Source of the DNA: Myxococcales bacterium
GTDB lineage: Bacteria; Myxococcota; B64-G9
Assembly (NCBI GenBank): GCA_012798435.1
Contig: JAAZNF010000092.1
Location: 1 to 64,000, forward strand
Direction: 5' to 3'
Length of the DNA: 64,000 nt
In this document: piece by piece, positions 32,483-40,870 of the stretch
Layout: the number at the start of each line of letters is the position of its first letter
Numbering within the stretch: position 1 is the stretch's first letter
The notes under the pieces: model-generated
The model's database searches: none
What the model was told of the DNA's origin: nothing
The model's input: only the letters and a program-made list of their open reading frames with translations
Position numbers and translations under genes: made by a program

Positions 32483-33487
32483 TCACGGGTTGGGGGTGGA
32501 GAGCGGCGCAGTCACGCCCGCGGGCGGACCCAGGGTCGAGGTGAAGCCCTTGCCGAAGTAGAAGTCCAGCACCCGGTTGTTGGTGACCTCGCGCTGGGGA
32601 ATGGGTTTCACCTCGCCGGGTGCCGGGGGCGGGATGAGTGGCGGGTTGCCGAATCCGTCGGCCACGAACCGGGTAGAAACCTCCAGGGTGATGGCTCCGC
32701 CGTCGGGGGTCTCCGCCACCAGCGAACCCGTCAGCTCGGCCAAGAGCAGCGCGCCGGAATCGGTGTCCACCGCCACCGTGCCGCGAAGCTCGCGGGGCCG
32801 CAGTCGATCCCGAAAGCGCTCTGCCTCGGCGGGGGTCTCCTCCACCGGGTACACGTACTTCTTCACGCCGGGCGGGACCGCCGGTGGGGCCGGGGTGCCG
32901 GGCAGGCGAGGCTCGCCCGCGGCCAGCGCGACGGAGAACTTGGCCGCGTCCCGGCCGTGGTGACGGAACACCCCCTGCTTGGCGAAGCTCCACCGCCCCC
33001 GGAACAGTCGATAGATCGCGGCCACGGCGCCGAAGGCCTGCTCGCGGTACTTGTCGGGGTCGCCCAGCAGCGTGTCCCGCTCGTGGTAGGGGCCCCAGCG
33101 GTTCTTGAGAAAGAAACGCCCGCCCGAGAACACCGCCTCGAAGCCGTGCCCGGCGTCGTTCTCCACCTTGACGCGGAAGTCTCCGTTCTGGGCGGTGACG
33201 ATGGTGTCCGTTTCGACGAGGGAGAGGCGCTCGTCACTGCCGGCCATCTGGTAGCGCACCTCGGCCTGGCAGCGGTGTGCCCCCAGACGCCGCGCCGCCT
33301 CGGCCTGGCTCATCAAAAAGATGCGGTCGGCGACGGTGGGGTTTTCGGGCAGTGAAAAGGCGTCCAGCGGCGCGAGCTTGGGGAGTTCCAGCGCGCCTCG
33401 TCCCTGGAAGTGCTCGAGGTGGCGCTCGCGCTTCTCGCCGCAGGCGGCGAAGAGCAAGCATAGCAGGAAGAATCCTGAGCGTCTCAT
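32483..33487 (-). CDS. Lipoprotein of unknown function
   Basis: This 334-residue protein begins with a typical lipoprotein signal (MRRSGFFLLCLLFAAC, acylated C16). The mature part is beta-rich and Pro-containing, with a Pro/Ala/Gly linker (about 205-225); no known domain is recognised. An N-terminal region (about 40-150) and a C-terminal region (about 225-320) may be two related beta domains of the LolA/LolB or outer-membrane lipoprotein-sorting type, but this is a guess. The gene is first in an operon with rsfS and comF and lies 34 bases from the end of the second C25 protease gene. Confidence 0.8.
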   Translation of the reverse strand: MRRSGFFLLCLLFAACGEKRERHLEHFQGRGALELPKLAPLDAFSLPENPTVADRIFLMSQAEAARRLGAHRCQAEVRYQMAGSDERLSLVETDTIVTAQNGDFRVKVENDAGHGFEAVFSGGRFFLKNRWGPYHERDTLLGDPDKYREQAFGAVAAIYRLFRGRWSFAKQGVFRHHGRDAAKFSVALAAGEPRLPGTPAPPAVPPGVKKYVYPVEETPAEAERFRDRLRPRELRGTVAVDTDSGALLLAELTGSLVAETPDGGAITLEVSTRFVADGFGNPPLIPPPAPGEVKPIPQREVTNNRVLDFYFGKGFTSTLGPPAGVTAPLSTPNP

Positions 33488-33521: not shown

Positions 33522-36500
33522 TCAACCGCGAACTGGATTTCTCCGACGGAGAGCGACGAGCAGGAAGACGGCCAGCGTCAGCCCGCCCGAGGACGAGGTT
33601 TGACAGCCGCCCCCGCTCTCGTCCACCGGGTCCACCCGCAGGGTGACCGGCACCGTGCGGCCCGGCGCGCCCGGCGCGGTGAAGAGCAGCAATCCCGAGT
33701 AGGAGCCCGCCGGTTGCGCGGACACCGACACCGACACCACTCCGTCCCCGCTCCCCGAGGCGGGCGCGGCCGAGAGCCAGTTGCCGGCGGCGAGCACGGT
33801 CCAGTCGAGCGCGCCACCCCCCGCGTTGCGGACCGCGAGCGCCTGCGGGTCGGGCGCGGCGGTGCCTTCGCGCATCGAAAAGTCGAGCCGCTCGGGCGAG
33901 AGCGAGAAGGCGGGAGGGGGTTCCACCACCTCGAAGGCTATCGGCACCGCCAGCGGCGAGTTCTTGGCGCCGGCGGCGGTGATCCACAGGGTGGCGACGT
34001 AGTTTCCGGGGTCGAGGCCCGTGGCGTCCGCCTGGACATCCAGCACCGCGGGTAGGGTGCCCTGCGCCGGTTCGAGGTGGAGCCAGGGTTGGTCGGAGGA
34101 GACGCTGAACGCCAGAGCTGCGGCGGTGGTGGCGCTGAGGTGCAGCAGCTGGACCGCGGTGGGGCCGAGCCCGGCTTGCTGCTGGAAAACAAGCGACGAC
34201 GGTCGTGCCATGAGCACGTCGGGCTCGAGGCCCAACGCCATGTTGGCCAGGAAGGCCGCGTCGTCGATCTCGCCCACCGAGGAGGGCCAGAAGCCGACCA
34301 TGGGGTAGGCGCCGCCCTGGTAGTCGAAGTACTCCAGCATGAAGCCGAAGGAGTCCCCCGGCGCCCGTTTCAGGTAGCTCTGCTGCATGTCGATGCGCGC
34401 CTCCACGATGCGCGAGCCGGCCTGCATGCCGAAGGCCGCCTGGACGCCCGGCGGGTTGTACTCGACCGGTCCCGTGGTGAAGCCGTTGCCGGCGTTGTAG
34501 GCGGTCTGGAAAGTGGTGGTCCCCTCGCCGTAGAAGCCGAACACCCCTTCGCTTCCGGGCGCGGCCGGCCAGCGATCGTCGTTGTCGTTGTCGAAGAGCA
34601 GGATGAGCGCATCGCTCGTCTCGGGGGTGGGATCGTCGAGCAAGCGCAGGCCCAGGTACAGGTAGCGGCCGTCGTGGACCATCTTGCCCACCGAGTAACC
34701 GGGGGCCACCAGCCCCACGTCCATGAAGGCCGCCTCCGGGTACTCGTCGTCGCCGATCGTTCCATCGAGCACCGGCGGTGCGGCCACGAAGGGGACGGCC
34801 CGGTCCGCCACCTCCAGCACGAAGAGCTGGACCGGCACCGTCTGGGGCGAGTTCTGGGCCGCAGGGCAGCGGATGCTCAGCGAGCCCGCGAAGTAGCCCG
34901 GCGCCATGCCCTGGATGTCCGCCTGCAAGGTGAGCTCGGCCGGGGCGGTCCCCGAAGCGGGGGTGACCTCCAGCCAGGGCTGATCGGCCGAGGCGGTGAA
35001 GGCGAGCTCGCCGCCACCGTCGTTGCGCACGTGGATGCGCTGCGGGTACGACTTCGCATCACCGGCCCGGGCCACCAGTTGCACCGGCCCGGCCGGGAGC
35101 CCGATGAGCGGGGTGTCGCTCTGCGAGGTGTGGATGGCGAGGGCCGGATCGCCGAACAGGGTGAGCGAGTAGAGCTGCCAGCGCACGTAGCGGTCGGCCG
35201 CGAAGGCGGCGGCTTCGATGCGCGAGCGGTTGTGGATCTCGCCGAGGCGGTGCAGGCCATGGCCGAACACCGCGTCCCAGAAGGTGCGCTGCAAGAGATC
35301 CCCCACGCCGAAGCGGGTGAACATCACCACCCCGAAGGCGCCGTGCGCGCCGAGGAGCAGGTGCTCGGCGAACGAGTCCTGCGGGCTCACCCGGTTCTCG
35401 GAGTAGACCGGGTCGAGGCGGTTGTCGAACGAGCCCGGGTAACAGCCGCCGCTGTAGTCGAAGAAGGCAAATTCGTTCTCCAGCCGCTGGTCCAAGACGT
35501 CGCAGTTGAGGCGCATGTTGTCGTTGGTCATGGAGTGGCCCACGTGGTTCAAGAGGTGGACGCCGCCGTTCAGCACCGCCAGGATCTCGTCTTGGGTCCA
35601 CTCGTCGTGGCCGGTCATGGGCTCGCACAGGCGGTGGATCTCGAAGAAGGCGCTGTCTGCGAAGCCGCGGGTGGGGATGCCCTCCGCGGCCGAACCGTCG
35701 ATCAACATGTCCAGCATCTCGCAGCCGAACGCCCCCGGGGCCAGGATCTCGCCCGCGAACCAGGCGCTCTTCAGGCCGTCGTCGCGGCGCGGCGCGTACT
35801 CAAGCGTCTTCTTCACGAAGTGGGCGATCTCGGCGCAGCTATCGGCCGGGGCGCGGCCCACGGCGATGTCCGGCAGCAGGTCCGGCTCGTCGTCCTCCTC
35901 GCCGAAGACGCGGTTGCGGTTCTTGTCGAAGTCGCCGTCCAGGGCCGCGTAGTACAGGTCGGAGACCAGATTGAGCTCCGGCCCGCCGTAGTCGATGTCG
36001 CCCCACAGGCCGCGGGCGGGGACGATGGGGGATTCGGTCTCGCCGCCCACCACCGCCAGATCGGCGTCCCCGGCCAGGAGCACGAAGTCGCTGCCGCGCT
36101 CGTGGTACTCGCGGGCGATGAAGGCGCGCAGCTTCTCGGCGTCGTCGCCTTCCGAGAAGGCGGCGCGCACCTCGTCCATGGTGACGAGGCGGGCCGGCAA
36201 GCCTTCCGCGGTGCGGGCCGCGGCGAGCGCCTGCAGGTTGTCGGGGCCGGGGCAGCTCTCCAGGCCGGCCCCGGTCACGATGAGGTAGCGCGTCTCGCCG
36301 TCCTTGGCCGGGGGGCGGACGGGGTACGCCGAGAGCGTCTTGGGGTTCTCCACGAGATCCGAAAGCCAGGCGAGATCGCGCTCCCGGCCACGGTAGGTCG
36401 GGGGAAGGTTCTTGCCCGGCGCGGTGGTGACGCGCAGCTCCACGCGAAAGATCTGGCGGAGCTCGCCGGATCGCGGCCGGTACTCGAGCGGCCGCAGCAG

Positions 36501-36941
36501 CACGGGGAGGATGGGCACGCCGCGCGAGAACTGGACGCTGGCGGGTTCGACCCGTGCGGTCGGGTGGGGCCGTTCGCCGAGGTACAGATCCAGGTCCGGC
36601 TGGGTGAACGGGCGCAGCCCGCGGTGGCTGGTGGGGTACTTTCGCTGCGCCGGGAAGATCACGTGGCTGCCCGGCAGGATGCCCTCGGAGAGGACGCGGG
36701 TCTCGACGGTAAGCAGCGCTTCGTTCGGCGGCAGGGCCACCATGATGGCCCGCGCGGGGAGCTCCGGCGCGCCGGGCCGGCCGGACGGCTCGTAGCCCGG
36801 AATGCGCGCGTGGGTGAAGCCCTGGGCGTCCTGCGCGAGATCCGCCGCCGGCACGTCGATGACAAGCTCGACCACTCCGGCCGAGACGGTCAGGGGAAGG
36901 AGCGCCAGCACACACGGGACGAAGAGCAGCTTGGGTTTCAT
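33522..36941 (-). CDS. Gingipain-like (C25) cysteine protease with BACON-like domains and C-terminal hydrophobic sorting tail
   Basis: This 1139-residue protein has a signal peptide (residues 1-21, ending VSAG). A propeptide-like region and a C25 catalytic domain (about 190-600) follow, with H466/H469 in NHVGHS and C500 in YSGGCYPGSFD. Then come a BACON-like domain (SADQPWLEVTPASGTAP), a CBM9-like region (about 750-930) and two more BACON-like copies. Its end (GGGCQTSSSGG, hydrophobic helix, RRR) is a MYXO-CTERM-like tail. It is the paralogue of 14297-18457, with the same domain order but lacking the FN3 and Ig parts. GGAGG precedes the ATG. Confidence 0.87.
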   Translation of the reverse strand: MKPKLLFVPCVLALLPLTVSAGVVELVIDVPAADLAQDAQGFTHARIPGYEPSGRPGAPELPARAIMVALPPNEALLTVETRVLSEGILPGSHVIFPAQRKYPTSHRGLRPFTQPDLDLYLGERPHPTARVEPASVQFSRGVPILPVLLRPLEYRPRSGELRQIFRVELRVTTAPGKNLPPTYRGRERDLAWLSDLVENPKTLSAYPVRPPAKDGETRYLIVTGAGLESCPGPDNLQALAAARTAEGLPARLVTMDEVRAAFSEGDDAEKLRAFIAREYHERGSDFVLLAGDADLAVVGGETESPIVPARGLWGDIDYGGPELNLVSDLYYAALDGDFDKNRNRVFGEEDDEPDLLPDIAVGRAPADSCAEIAHFVKKTLEYAPRRDDGLKSAWFAGEILAPGAFGCEMLDMLIDGSAAEGIPTRGFADSAFFEIHRLCEPMTGHDEWTQDEILAVLNGGVHLLNHVGHSMTNDNMRLNCDVLDQRLENEFAFFDYSGGCYPGSFDNRLDPVYSENRVSPQDSFAEHLLLGAHGAFGVVMFTRFGVGDLLQRTFWDAVFGHGLHRLGEIHNRSRIEAAAFAADRYVRWQLYSLTLFGDPALAIHTSQSDTPLIGLPAGPVQLVARAGDAKSYPQRIHVRNDGGGELAFTASADQPWLEVTPASGTAPAELTLQADIQGMAPGYFAGSLSIRCPAAQNSPQTVPVQLFVLEVADRAVPFVAAPPVLDGTIGDDEYPEAAFMDVGLVAPGYSVGKMVHDGRYLYLGLRLLDDPTPETSDALILLFDNDNDDRWPAAPGSEGVFGFYGEGTTTFQTAYNAGNGFTTGPVEYNPPGVQAAFGMQAGSRIVEARIDMQQSYLKRAPGDSFGFMLEYFDYQGGAYPMVGFWPSSVGEIDDAAFLANMALGLEPDVLMARPSSLVFQQQAGLGPTAVQLLHLSATTAAALAFSVSSDQPWLHLEPAQGTLPAVLDVQADATGLDPGNYVATLWITAAGAKNSPLAVPIAFEVVEPPPAFSLSPERLDFSMREGTAAPDPQALAVRNAGGGALDWTVLAAGNWLSAAPASGSGDGVVSVSVSAQPAGSYSGLLLFTAPGAPGRTVPVTLRVDPVDESGGGCQTSSSGGLTLAVFLLVALRRRNPVRG

Positions 36942-37021: not shown

Positions 37022-37900
37022 TTATCCGGCACAGGGCCAGTTCGCGGGCGGGGCCTGCCCGGGGGCGAGCGCGGAGTGGGCGGTCACCGAGATCAGGGTG
37101 ATGTCGGTGCACACGCCGCCGGGTTGTTCCATGCGCTGATAGGTGTAGGTGAGGGAGCGGCCGTCGGGGGCGCACTCGAACACCCAGTCGGTGGGCACCT
37201 CGTCGGGCGGCACCTCCAGGCTCTCGGCGCCGCCGTCGTGCATGGGGGGAGTCTCCTGGCACATCTGGTACTGCAGGCTCGGCAGCGGGTAGAGGGTGAC
37301 GAACAGCTCGACGTCCGGGGGGAGCCACTGTCCCCGGCCGGGCCCGGTCCAGTGGTAGATGTTCAGGCCGGGCTTCACCACGGAGATGTCGGAGAGATCC
37401 CCTTCGAACTCGTAGAGGGAGTAGGACTCCAGCGGGCCGAGGATGAAGTCGATAGGTTCCACCGTTCCCGGCGGCAGCAGGTCGAGGCGGTGATTGTGGT
37501 TGCGGTCGTCGTAGAACAGCAGACCCCCGATGGCCACCCGTAGATCGCGGCCGGCGAGCGCGGGGTCGAGGATCTCGGCCGGGTGGAGGACTTCCTGGGG
37601 TGGCAGGCGGGGGAAGCCGATGGCGAACCGGCCCGCCTGGCTCGGATCGATGCGGGCGTCCTGGGCCACGTTGGCCACCGAGCCGTAGCCCTGGAGGTCG
37701 AGGGTCTCGATCCACACCGCCGCGGCCCGCAGGCTCGAAGTGTCGATCTGCTCCGAGCCCAGGTAGATGCGGCCGCGGATGGTCCACAGCGCCGCGCCCT
37801 CGTGGCCGGGAGGGAACAGGGCCTCGCAGCCCAGGCCGAGCGCAAGCAGCAGTACCAGCATCGGCCGGATCGGCACAGGGATGGCGATGAAACCGCTCAC
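37022..37900 (-). CDS. Putative lipoprotein of unknown function
   Basis: This 292-residue protein has a hydrophobic N-terminus with a lipobox-like LALGLGC (Cys at about residue 25 of the GTG-start version). It is beta-rich and no family is recognised. A segment DDRNHNHRLD resembles an Asp/Asn calcium-binding loop. The start is uncertain because no ribosome binding site is visible before GTG at 37900; an ATG at 37861 directly precedes the hydrophobic stretch. It ends 80 bases upstream of the protease start on the same strand, so the two may be co-transcribed. Confidence 0.7.
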   Translation of the reverse strand: MSGFIAIPVPIRPMLVLLLALGLGCEALFPPGHEGAALWTIRGRIYLGSEQIDTSSLRAAAVWIETLDLQGYGSVANVAQDARIDPSQAGRFAIGFPRLPPQEVLHPAEILDPALAGRDLRVAIGGLLFYDDRNHNHRLDLLPPGTVEPIDFILGPLESYSLYEFEGDLSDISVVKPGLNIYHWTGPGRGQWLPPDVELFVTLYPLPSLQYQMCQETPPMHDGGAESLEVPPDEVPTDWVFECAPDGRSLTYTYQRMEQPGGVCTDITLISVTAHSALAPGQAPPANWPCAG

Positions 37901-37940: not shown

Positions 37941-39533
37941 TCAGTAGCGATACAGGAGGTCCAGCGCGCCTCGTAACGAAGGAACGGCGTCGAGCGTCTC
38001 GCCCTCCGATGCGGCTCGCTCCGCTCCCAGCAGCGAGGAGCGCAGGCCGAGGCGCAGGGAAAGCCGGGAGGAGAGCGGCAGCCGGTACGAGAGGTCCAGG
38101 CAGCCGCCGAGAGCGAGCCCGAGCCGGGTGGTTCGATCCGGGACTTCGATGCCAGCCTTTCGCAGTCGCGCGGCGTCCCGGTTGAGACGCGCCTGGTGTA
38201 CCAGCAGAGCCTCGAACCCGCCCGCCAGGTCCAGCCGGCCCGGCCCGGCGAAGAAGCGGAAGGCCAGCAGCGCGCTGGCCGAGAGCGACACTTCTTCGGT
38301 CTGGAATGGCTCATGCTCGTAGCGGGCCACGCCCAGGCCCACGTCGCCGGCGACGACCAGACCTCCGAAGGCTCGTTCCAGAGACAGGCGTGGCCCCTGG
38401 CGCGCCACCCACTCGCCGGCGAAGCGATCCATGCGCAGCTCGTAGCCCAACCCGAACGCCAGGGGGTGGAGATCGAGGCGCCCGCCCCGCCGCGCCACCA
38501 CCTCGTAGGGCCGCTCGGCAAAGTCGCTGGCCGAAAGCCGGTGTCGGCCGCCGAACGGCAGCTCCACCTCGGCCACCGAGAAACGATCCCGGTCGCGCCG
38601 CTGCACCAGCAGCCGCCCCGGCGGCACCGCCAGCGAGAGCGGCTGCGCGGGCGAGGCTACCGCCTCCGCGACCAGCGCGCCGGAGGGCTGGACAAAGACC
38701 AGGTAGCGCGACTCGGGGCCGGCGGGCAGGATGAGCGAGGCCGAGGCCACGGCGGGCTCGGTGAGCACCAGTTCGCCGAAGCCCGAGAGTTCCAGGTCGA
38801 AGGCGGGCCGCTGGGGCGAACTCCCGCCACCGGCGGCGTGCCGCACGGTCTGGCGGAAGGCGAAGGTGTAGGCCTCGAGCAGCGTCACTCGGCCGTCGCC
38901 ATCCAGATCGCCCGCGCCGCGCAAGCCCGAGAGCCAGTAGTGGGTGAACACCGCCCCGCCCAGGGCGTCCGACTCGTGCGCGGGCTCGCCCTGCTGGGTG
39001 GACTGGATCACCACCACCCCGGCGGCGCTGGTGGAGGGCAGTACCCCGATGTCGAAACTGGGCGCGGGGCGTACACCCCGCCGGGTCGCCGCGCGCTCGA
39101 TCTGGCAGGCGTCGAGCACCACCAGCTTGATCCCCGCGGGGAGCAGGCGCAGCCGCTCCATGAGCCGCGCTCGCGCCAACGGTTCCTCGGCCAGGTGGAG
39201 GTTGTCCCGATCGCCATGGCCGGCGAAGTAGAAGATCACCGTGGCGGCACGGGCCGCCAGGATGTTCTGCCGCAGGCGCTCCTCGAGGTGGAGGATGGCC
39301 CGCTCCACGGCGGCACCGTCCGGGCCGCGCAGCAGGATCAGATCCTCGGGCCGCACCCTCCCCAGATCGAGCAGGATGCGGGCGAAGCGCTCGGCGTCCC
39401 GCTCGGCGAAGCGCAACGGATCCTCGTCGGGCTCGCCCAGGTTGTGGCCGATCACCAGCGCCAGCCGCCACTCGGCCCGGGCCGTGGGTGCCAGCAGGAC
39501 AAGGCTCGCGGCCAGCAGCAGGCGAGCGCTCAC
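37941..39533 (-). CDS. Exported caspase-fold (C14) peptidase with predicted outer-membrane beta-barrel C-terminus
   Basis: This 530-residue protein has a signal peptide (residues 1-20, TARAEW). A caspase-like domain follows (about 22-250) with H106 in YFAGHGD and C143 in VVLDACQ, the His-Cys dyad of clan CD. An EF-hand-like loop lies near residue 215 (DLDGDGRVTLLEA). From about residue 270 the sequence is a series of amphipathic beta-strands, and the protein ends LDLLYRY with an aromatic terminal residue, as outer-membrane barrels do. The GTG at 39533 overlaps the anti-sigma stop (GTGA). It is the third gene of the sigma/anti-sigma/caspase operon. Confidence 0.82.
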   Translation of the reverse strand: MSARLLLAASLVLLAPTARAEWRLALVIGHNLGEPDEDPLRFAERDAERFARILLDLGRVRPEDLILLRGPDGAAVERAILHLEERLRQNILAARAATVIFYFAGHGDRDNLHLAEEPLARARLMERLRLLPAGIKLVVLDACQIERAATRRGVRPAPSFDIGVLPSTSAAGVVVIQSTQQGEPAHESDALGGAVFTHYWLSGLRGAGDLDGDGRVTLLEAYTFAFRQTVRHAAGGGSSPQRPAFDLELSGFGELVLTEPAVASASLILPAGPESRYLVFVQPSGALVAEAVASPAQPLSLAVPPGRLLVQRRDRDRFSVAEVELPFGGRHRLSASDFAERPYEVVARRGGRLDLHPLAFGLGYELRMDRFAGEWVARQGPRLSLERAFGGLVVAGDVGLGVARYEHEPFQTEEVSLSASALLAFRFFAGPGRLDLAGGFEALLVHQARLNRDAARLRKAGIEVPDRTTRLGLALGGCLDLSYRLPLSSRLSLRLGLRSSLLGAERAASEGETLDAVPSLRGALDLLYRY

Positions 39534-40276
39534 GGTGCCTCCGGATCCAGCAGGAGCTGGTGCGCCACGCCTTCCAGGGTGCGGCCTTGCCGCACCGCGA
39601 ACTCCGCCTCGACGAGCAAGCTGTCGATGGCGAAGGGCGCCGGGCGGATCACCAGCAGTAGCCGCGCCGGCGCGCCGCCTTCCAGCGCCGCCGAACCCGG
39701 CAGGAAGGACGTGCCCGCGATCTCGAATGGGGGCGCGGCGCGGGATGCCGGTAGCACCGGCAGGGCCCGGGCGCTCTCCAGTGCCACCAGGGCGGCGTAG
39801 GCGCGCTGTCCCGGAGGCAGCGCGATCTCGTAGCGCAGCCGATCGCCCGGCCGGGGACGATGGTCGCCGAGGAGCGCGCGCTGTCCTTCTCGTTCCAGAT
39901 ACACCCGGACCACCGCTGCGGCGCCGCGCCAGCGCTCGCCCTCCGCGGCCGGGCGCCACAGCAGCACCGCGATCAGCAGCAGGGCGGCGGTGGCGGAGGC
40001 GGCCAGCAAGAACGGCCAGCGGGGCCGGGGCGCTGCGCCTGACGCGGCACGGGCCAACACGCTGGCGGCGAAGGTCGCCGGCGGCGAGCGCGCCTCGAGC
40101 GCCTCCTGTTCTCCTCGGCACGCCTCGACATACTCCTCGCAGGCGCGGCAGGATGCCAGGTGGTCTGCGATGCGCTTCCACTCTTCGCCCGACGCTTCCT
40201 GCGCCAGCCAGCGCTCCAGATCCCGGCGTGGCGGGTGCCCGGTGCGGCCATCGAAATCGGAAAGCAAGACATGCAT
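39530..40276 (-). CDS. Zinc-finger (HxxxCxxC) anti-sigma factor, single-pass membrane protein
   Basis: This 248-residue protein has the zinc-binding anti-sigma motif H39, C43, C46 (DHLASCRAC) in a short cytoplasmic domain and one transmembrane helix (about residues 87-107, LLAASATAALLLIAVLLW). A periplasmic beta-rich domain of about 140 residues may sense an extracytoplasmic signal. The ATG at 40276 follows AAGGGA by nine bases; an upstream in-frame ATG at 40285 abuts that sequence and is less likely. The gene lies 57 bases after the ECF sigma factor and overlaps the caspase gene by four bases (GTGA). Confidence 0.85.
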   Translation of the reverse strand: MHVLLSDFDGRTGHPPRRDLERWLAQEASGEEWKRIADHLASCRACEEYVEACRGEQEALEARSPPATFAASVLARAASGAAPRPRWPFLLAASATAALLLIAVLLWRPAAEGERWRGAAAVVRVYLEREGQRALLGDHRPRPGDRLRYEIALPPGQRAYAALVALESARALPVLPASRAAPPFEIAGTSFLPGSAALEGGAPARLLLVIRPAPFAIDSLLVEAEFAVRQGRTLEGVAHQLLLDPEAP

Positions 40277-40333
40277 CGCGTCCATTCCCTTCGTCTGGTT
40301 AGACCGAGATGGCATGGGTATTTGGGAACTCGG

Positions 40334-40870
40334 TCAAGTCCTGGCACCGGATTTCCACCGGACGGCCCGTTCAGCGAGCGCCCGGAGTTTCTTTCCCACC
40401 GTGCGCCGCGACCAGCCGAGCTCCACGGCGATCCGCTCCTGCGGCAAGCCGTCCAGGTAGTGCAGCAGAGCCAGGCGTTTCAACTTGTCGGGCAGCCGAT
40501 GGAAGAACCGCCCCAGCACCTCGCGCGCCTCCGAGCCGAGAGCCTCGTCGATGGGCGTCGGTTCTCGCGCCAGCGCCGCCTCGTCCACCGGCTCCTCGCG
40601 CCGCCGCCGGCGTAGCCGGTCGAAACAGCAGCGCTCGGCGGTGCGGTAGAGCCAGGACAGCGGCACCCGCTCGCCCTCCAGGCTGGCGCCGTACCTGAGC
40701 AGGCGCATGAACACCTCTTGCAGGGCGTCCTCGGCCTCGGCGGGATCGCGCAGGAGAAGCCGGCAGCGGCGCAGCACCAGCGCGCCACAGCGCCGGTACA
40801 GTTCGGCGATCGCCGCTTCGTCCAGGGGCGGGCGCGGTGGCTTGATGGGAAATGCCAACCCGGGCACCAT
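40334..40870 (-). CDS. ECF-type RNA polymerase sigma factor
   Basis: This 178-residue sigma factor has region 2 (RRCGALVLRRCRLLLRD, EDALQEVFMRLL, SWLYRTAERCCFDRLRRRR) and region 4 (LPDKLKRLALLHYLDGLPQE, IAVELGWSRRTVGKKLRALAERA) and no region 3, as expected of the ECF group. The gene begins the sigma/anti-sigma/caspase operon and probably activates its own promoter after release from the zinc anti-sigma. The start at 40870 is chosen as the first Met close to the conserved part; no strong ribosome binding site is visible, so it could be a few codons later. Confidence 0.88.
   Translation of the reverse strand: MVPGLAFPIKPPRPPLDEAAIAELYRRCGALVLRRCRLLLRDPAEAEDALQEVFMRLLRYGASLEGERVPLSWLYRTAERCCFDRLRRRRREEPVDEAALAREPTPIDEALGSEAREVLGRFFHRLPDKLKRLALLHYLDGLPQERIAVELGWSRRTVGKKLRALAERAVRWKSGART

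Follow-up and report, generated by a model that had tools for sequence, protein, structure and literature searches.

Within a 64,000-nucleotide stretch of DNA from a Myxococcales bacterium (GenBank assembly GCA_012798435.1, contig JAAZNF010000092.1, positions 1 to 64,000; hereafter the window), three genes follow one another in a single run on the minus strand and encode an extracytoplasmic function (ECF) sigma factor (40334-40870), a membrane anti-sigma factor (39530-40276) and an exported caspase-like protein (37941-39533) with a predicted beta-barrel at its C-terminus. The window holds one copy of a Myxococcota-wide cassette that consists of these three genes and, often, a lipoprotein gene. 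We favor, with modest confidence, an explanation in which an outer-membrane-anchored, periplasm-facing caspase operates under its own envelope-sensing sigma switch, and perhaps acts on the anti-sigma. All three open reading frames (ORFs) lie on one strand at the positions given by an earlier reading of the sequence alone (the original prediction), and the caspase gene, which starts with GTG, shares 4 bp with the stop of the anti-sigma gene (39530-39533). The three-gene operon that was then proposed stands for those three genes but not in its extent, since the run of genes continues further downstream. The features of the three genes, some of them taken from AlphaFold2 (AF2) models and their predicted local distance difference test (pLDDT) scores, are as follows.

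40334-40870, minus strand: ECF sigma gene (178 aa; Sigma70_r2 and Sigma70_r4_2; relatives lie upstream of caspase genes)
39530-40276, minus strand: anti-sigma gene (248 aa; anti-sigma domain of the zinc-finger type, a single membrane helix, predicted periplasmic beta domain)
40139-40162, minus strand: HxxxCxxC motif (His39, Cys43, Cys46) in the anti-sigma sequence
39548-39919, minus strand: predicted periplasmic DUF4384-like domain, anti-sigma residues 120-243 (Pfam matches of relatives and modelled beta fold)
37941-39533, minus strand: exported caspase-beta-barrel gene (530 aa; GTG start)
39471-39533, minus strand: signal peptide, residues 1-21 of the caspase-barrel protein, VSARLLLAASLVLLAPTARA
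38784-39470, minus strand: caspase (Peptidase_C14) domain, residues 22-250 (Pfam, Foldseek, invariant residues)
39216-39218, 39111-39113 and 39105-39107, minus strand: catalytic-site residues His106, Asp141 and Cys143, respectively (alignment of 74)
39036-39092, minus strand: disordered loop after the catalytic Cys, residues 148-166 (pLDDT <50; candidate self-cleavage loop)
38496-38768, minus strand: linking beta domain, residues 256-346 (AF2 strands, pLDDT mostly >90)
37947-38462, minus strand: predicted eight-stranded outer-membrane-type barrel, residues 358-529 (AF2, Foldseek; the protein ends in Tyr)

The comparison set drew on some 100 related loci in Myxococcota genomes (locus labels L###), where most relatives of the caspase-barrel protein have an N-terminal leader and a length of 470-556 aa. 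An ECF sigma gene lies no more than 1.1 kb upstream of the caspase gene in 80 of the 98 loci with enough upstream DNA, and at 78 loci an ORF with a transmembrane (TM) helix lies between the two; because the neighborhood recurs at 80 of 98 loci it is not due to chance, and the conserved gene order that the original prediction had proposed to look for in other genomes is thus present. Distance matrices between loci agree for caspase and sigma (r = 0.83) and for caspase and anti-sigma (r = 0.84), with permutation maxima of about 0.12, and agreement this strong among the three proteins indicates that the three-gene unit is inherited together. At E ≤ 1e-30 the caspase-barrel protein was found in 149 of 179 Myxococcota genomes, at most eight candidates being scored per genome, and the best matches listed span nearly the full profile. 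The cassette, previously called unusual, is consequently not rare, for most of the Myxococcota genomes searched have it, often several times; the window's own genome carries at least five more caspase loci. The nearest relatives of the window cassette are L072, L073, L007 and L074.

The N-terminal half of the exported protein is a caspase domain. Peptidase_C14 matches residues 23-199 (2.2e-10; 41.1 bits against a cut-off of 21.4) and matches all 74 aligned members, in every one of which His106, Asp141, Cys143, Glu187, Asp209 and Glu220 are identical, so that the His106-Cys143 dyad that had been noted behind the signal peptide proves invariant; among the relatives listed, the N-termini likewise carry a hydrophobic leader. 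For the N-terminal part of the AF2 model Foldseek returned MALT1, caspase-8, caspase-6 and metacaspases, with an E of 1.2e-7 and a TMt of 0.68 for the caspase domain of MALT1, and a sequence search of the PDB gave no match. The protein shares with orthocaspases, Peptidase_C14 proteins and MALT1 the caspase fold, the His-Cys dyad and an Asp two residues before the Cys, a placement that would suit the basic-residue pocket type, and differs from them in its added signal peptide and barrel fusion. The invariant acids Asp141 and Glu187 would fit an Arg/Lys-binding pocket, and we think it probable that the protein is an active Arg/Lys protease. Residue 152, within the disordered 148-166 loop, is basic (Lys or Arg) in 73 of 74 sequences and is followed by Gly153 in all 74; by analogy with orthocaspases, this is where self-cleavage would be expected, and the site is put forward as a candidate. 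Assignment of the caspase to a defence system was considered and set aside, PADLOC having returned merely a weak "caspase" match, and a PHROGs search gave one weak match to a function-unknown family.

The AF2 model of the whole protein, built from an alignment (A1) of 74 sequences, has a pLDDT of 91.5 and a predicted TM-score (pTM) of 0.85, and its C-terminal part contains eight high-confidence strands of 14-20 residues each, for which Foldseek returned Ail, NspA, OmpA, OmpX and OmpW. The original prediction had described a strand-rich, barrel-like C-terminal half and had named a structure lacking a barrel as the outcome that would count against it; structure prediction and Foldseek instead pointed to an eight-stranded barrel. 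The signal peptide, the even number of long antiparallel strands and the C-terminal aromatic residue that define an outer-membrane barrel of this type are all present. Among relatives, 38 of 78 end in Phe, Trp or Tyr (36 of them in Phe), as against 4.4% of the other ORFs at the same loci, and three match the barrel family PF13505 (OMP_b-brl) directly. A barrel profile matched 77 of 79 members of the 470-556-aa size class and none of 20 longer members, which form a subclass of their own, a result to be read mainly as a consistency check, as the 74 sequences behind the profile sit among those 77. In the PDB Foldseek match list caspase and barrel occur in separate entries only, and in a BFVD search barrels and metacaspases likewise came up as separate proteins. 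On the basis of the model it is very likely that the protein is an outer-membrane-anchored, periplasm-facing protease; since a barrel of eight strands has its N- and C-termini on the inner side, the caspase domain would hang into the periplasm.

The two upstream genes have the makings of a membrane-tethered switch. The ECF sigma protein matches Sigma70_r2 (3e-14) and Sigma70_r4_2 (1.3e-7) and contains regions 2 and 4 only, as befits an ECF sigma factor; an alternative start at an upstream GTG (40936) is possible. In the AF2 model of the anti-sigma (pLDDT 88.5), helices at residues 17-78 precede a TM helix at 87-107 and a beta domain at 122-243, and with His39, Cys43 and Cys46 in the helical part and a gene adjoining its sigma it qualifies as a zinc-type class I anti-sigma, in line with the HxxxCxxC protein with one TM helix that had been described. 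The motif is present in 54 of the 78 relatives in the sigma, TM-ORF, caspase layout, and the 72 aligned anti-sigma relatives include 46 with a Pfam DUF4384 match (best 1.9e-10) and 22 with zf-HC2, a family that the window protein itself does not match. Foldseek with the anti-sigma model gave nothing below 1e-3, merely weak immunoglobulin-like matches. The window anti-sigma would presumably bind and inhibit its cognate sigma. DUF4384 is fused to the caspase in 23 cyanobacterial orthocaspases (PMC8283722, Table 1), and because of these fusions the two domains may work together, a hint of cooperation between DUF4384 and caspases.

Further genes follow the caspase gene in the same orientation, at spacings of 40 bp (caspase-lipoprotein), 80 bp (lipoprotein-C25 protease) and 34 bp (C25 protease-second lipoprotein-like gene).

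37022-37900, minus strand: lipoprotein gene (292 aa; lipobox Cys25 at 37826-37828)
33522-36941, minus strand: gingipain-type protease gene (Peptidase_C25; 1139 aa; PF01364 7e-41; BACON domains)
32483-33487, minus strand: second lipoprotein-like gene (334 aa; LFAACG box in translation)

Lipoprotein genes from several families lie 3' of many caspase genes, and the family found in the window occurs at no fewer than 17 cassettes; all 16 of its members that were aligned keep the lipobox Cys. The presence of the same family upstream instead, at L073 and L074, supports a functional link between the lipoprotein and the cassette; at L073 the lipoprotein gene splits the pair. In M. xanthus a Lys at position +2 is the mark of an inner-membrane lipoprotein (PMC3222651); the lipoprotein of the cassette has no such Lys. 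At L096, L098, L109, L137 and others of their cluster the downstream lipoprotein belongs to another family, with a mature N-terminus resembling CGGDFSN(E/D)DLEF. The order caspase-lipoprotein-C25 is found in three genomes, those of the window, L163 and L146, the last two being other genomes of the same family with caspases about 25-30% identical to that of the window. The second lipoprotein-like protein has no Pfam match; its gene is possibly the end of the operon, its membership being uncertain.

A promoter was sought as well. The ECF promoter suggested by the original prediction upstream of the window operon was not found, a sigma-70 promoter scan of the region found none, and hand-made patterns for the window class found little. 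At nine loci, mostly of a long caspase subclass (690-790 aa), the sigma gene is immediately preceded, between differing flanks, by the motif GGTGACA-N13-CGGTGTT or a variant with one base changed (L103, L104, L107, L112, L113, L117, L139, L141 and L154). Across five genomes the motif occurs 16 times, versus no occurrence of the reversed pattern, and it also precedes genes for TolQ/ExbB-like, outer-membrane-like, lipoprotein-like and response-regulator proteins, assigned by eye from their translations. The distribution suggests that GGTGACA-N13-CGGTGTT marks the likely envelope regulon of the long-subclass sigma. On the contig of L100, at L180, the promoter motif lies 5' of an anti-sigma gene.

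Some loci depart from the common layout. At L067, L138, L148, L144 and L110 a sigma-like gene is found 3' of the caspase gene rather than 5'; at L100, L101, L108 and L115 a long-class anti-sigma and a caspase are present and a sigma gene was not detected. L008 and L034, outside the family, have a sigma gene, a TM-helix ORF and a caspase whose barrel is absent by profile. In a paralogue from the window's own genome (G000:C84:22622-23475; L069, 3946-4860) the caspase and barrel parts lie in different reading frames, which is either a frameshift, a broken gene or an assembly error.

Taken as a signaling system, the cassette might work as follows. The anti-sigma would keep the sigma at the inner membrane while its periplasmic DUF4384-like domain senses the state of the envelope, and the sigma, once released, would transcribe the operon. 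The barrel of the exported caspase would insert into the outer membrane and place the caspase domain in the periplasm, opposite the periplasmic domain of the anti-sigma, poised to cut after Arg or Lys, possibly following self-cleavage at the Lys/Arg152 loop. By analogy with FecI-FecR-FecA, barrel-caspase and lipoprotein would probably act as sensors of a ligand or of outer-membrane damage, and the caspase would cleave proteins at the outer membrane, its own anti-sigma being a leading candidate substrate. That the anti-sigma is in fact a substrate of its cognate caspase is a proposal we make tentatively. More doubtful still is the full form of the idea, a protease-based cell-surface signaling in which the outer-membrane caspase cuts the DUF4384 domain of its partner anti-sigma and so frees a dedicated sigma, with several parallel, insulated copies per cell.

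Two known systems invite comparison. FecI-FecR-FecA comprises a sigma, a one-helix anti-sigma and an outer-membrane barrel with a periplasmic domain, in that gene order, which the window cassette parallels; the window barrel, in contrast, is small and eight-stranded and carries a caspase domain. Neither FecR or STN domains nor a TonB-dependent barrel were matched in Pfam scans of the cassette proteins and their relatives, and the cassette is therefore not a member of the FecR/FecA family. In the envelope stress response of DegS/RseP-RseA-sigma-E the membrane anti-sigma has a periplasmic part. The window cassette resembles it in having a periplasm-facing protease as the candidate trigger, and differs in that this protease is caspase-like, has a predicted outer-membrane anchor and is a product of the operon itself.

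Several observations weigh against a sigma switch coupled to an outer-membrane caspase. The window anti-sigma has no direct Pfam DUF4384 match; at 18 of 98 loci the caspase has no nearby upstream sigma; Gibbs sampling upstream of about 65 sigma genes of the window class gave no common bipartite motif; and co-inheritance is normal in any operon and no proof of contact. The long caspase subclass, moreover, keeps sigma and anti-sigma but has no barrel by profile; coupling to the sigma therefore does not depend on the barrel.

The strongest competing explanation, to which we give a real if minor chance, is that the caspase-barrel protein is an effector only, switched on by an envelope or social signal to cut proteins at the outer membrane that are foreign or damaged (during predation, for instance, or when cells touch), partnered by the C25 protease and with no feedback on the anti-sigma. 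A sigma operon usually includes the genes that form its output, the C25 protein, as a second protease of clan CD, and a lipoprotein stand in identical order in three genomes, and genomes hold several diversified copies, all of which would suit an effector; such a role nevertheless leaves unexplained the position of the caspase gene immediately after that of the anti-sigma at most loci, as well as the DUF4384-caspase fusions found elsewhere (PMC8283722). Much less probable is an envelope-triggered programmed cell death module. It was suggested by the original prediction, whose labels of "envelope stress" and "cell death" were guesses, and M. xanthus metacaspases have been proposed among the possible enzymes of developmental autolysis (Asplund-Samuelsson et al. 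2012, PMC3501461), but no toxin, pore former or nuclease was identified beside the cassette, several copies coexist in many genomes, and the protease is predicted to lie outside the cytoplasm, far from the usual death substrates. Nothing in the analysis gives specific support to a death role. Least probable of all, and very unlikely, is a soluble beta domain on a secreted or periplasmic protein with no membrane anchor, for which the lack of a direct Pfam barrel match in the window protein and of a barrel profile match in the long subclass would speak, against eight confident strands of 14-20 residues, Foldseek matches to Ail, NspA, OmpA and OmpX, the C-terminal aromatic bias and PF13505 in three relatives.

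The linkage of sigma and caspase in one operon is not itself new, having been reported in 2012: sigma-70 genes lie in the operons of four of the five M. xanthus metacaspases and in those of other myxobacteria, and many membrane-class caspases may possess signal peptides (Asplund-Samuelsson et al. 2012, PMC3501461). Those operons, from Myxococcus xanthus, Anaeromyxobacter, Haliangium and Sorangium, are very probably of the same type as the window cassette, with sigma and caspase in one operon and several copies per genome as here; the main text of that paper does not mention an anti-sigma, a barrel, the periplasm or secretion of these proteins. The EACC2-caspase systems (PMC8195603, 2021) also have an ECF sigma in the neighborhood of the caspase gene, and differ in their EACC2, TRADD-N and TPR conflict parts as against the anti-sigma, barrel and lipoprotein found here. 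In the open-access literature we found no report of the caspase-barrel fusion, the anti-sigma or the lipoprotein of the cassette, and neither the anchoring in the outer membrane nor the complete set of genes appears to have been described.

Bacterial relatives of caspases have mostly been treated as cytosolic immune or death proteases. If the proposal of an outer-membrane-anchored caspase under its own sigma switch is true, part of caspase biology would shift to envelope signaling, in a family that spans the phylum and keeps its active sites intact, and there would be a concrete candidate substrate in the anti-sigma and a concrete partner in the lipoprotein. With four sigma-linked caspase operons in M. 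xanthus (PMC3501461), a tractable organism, the idea is directly testable.

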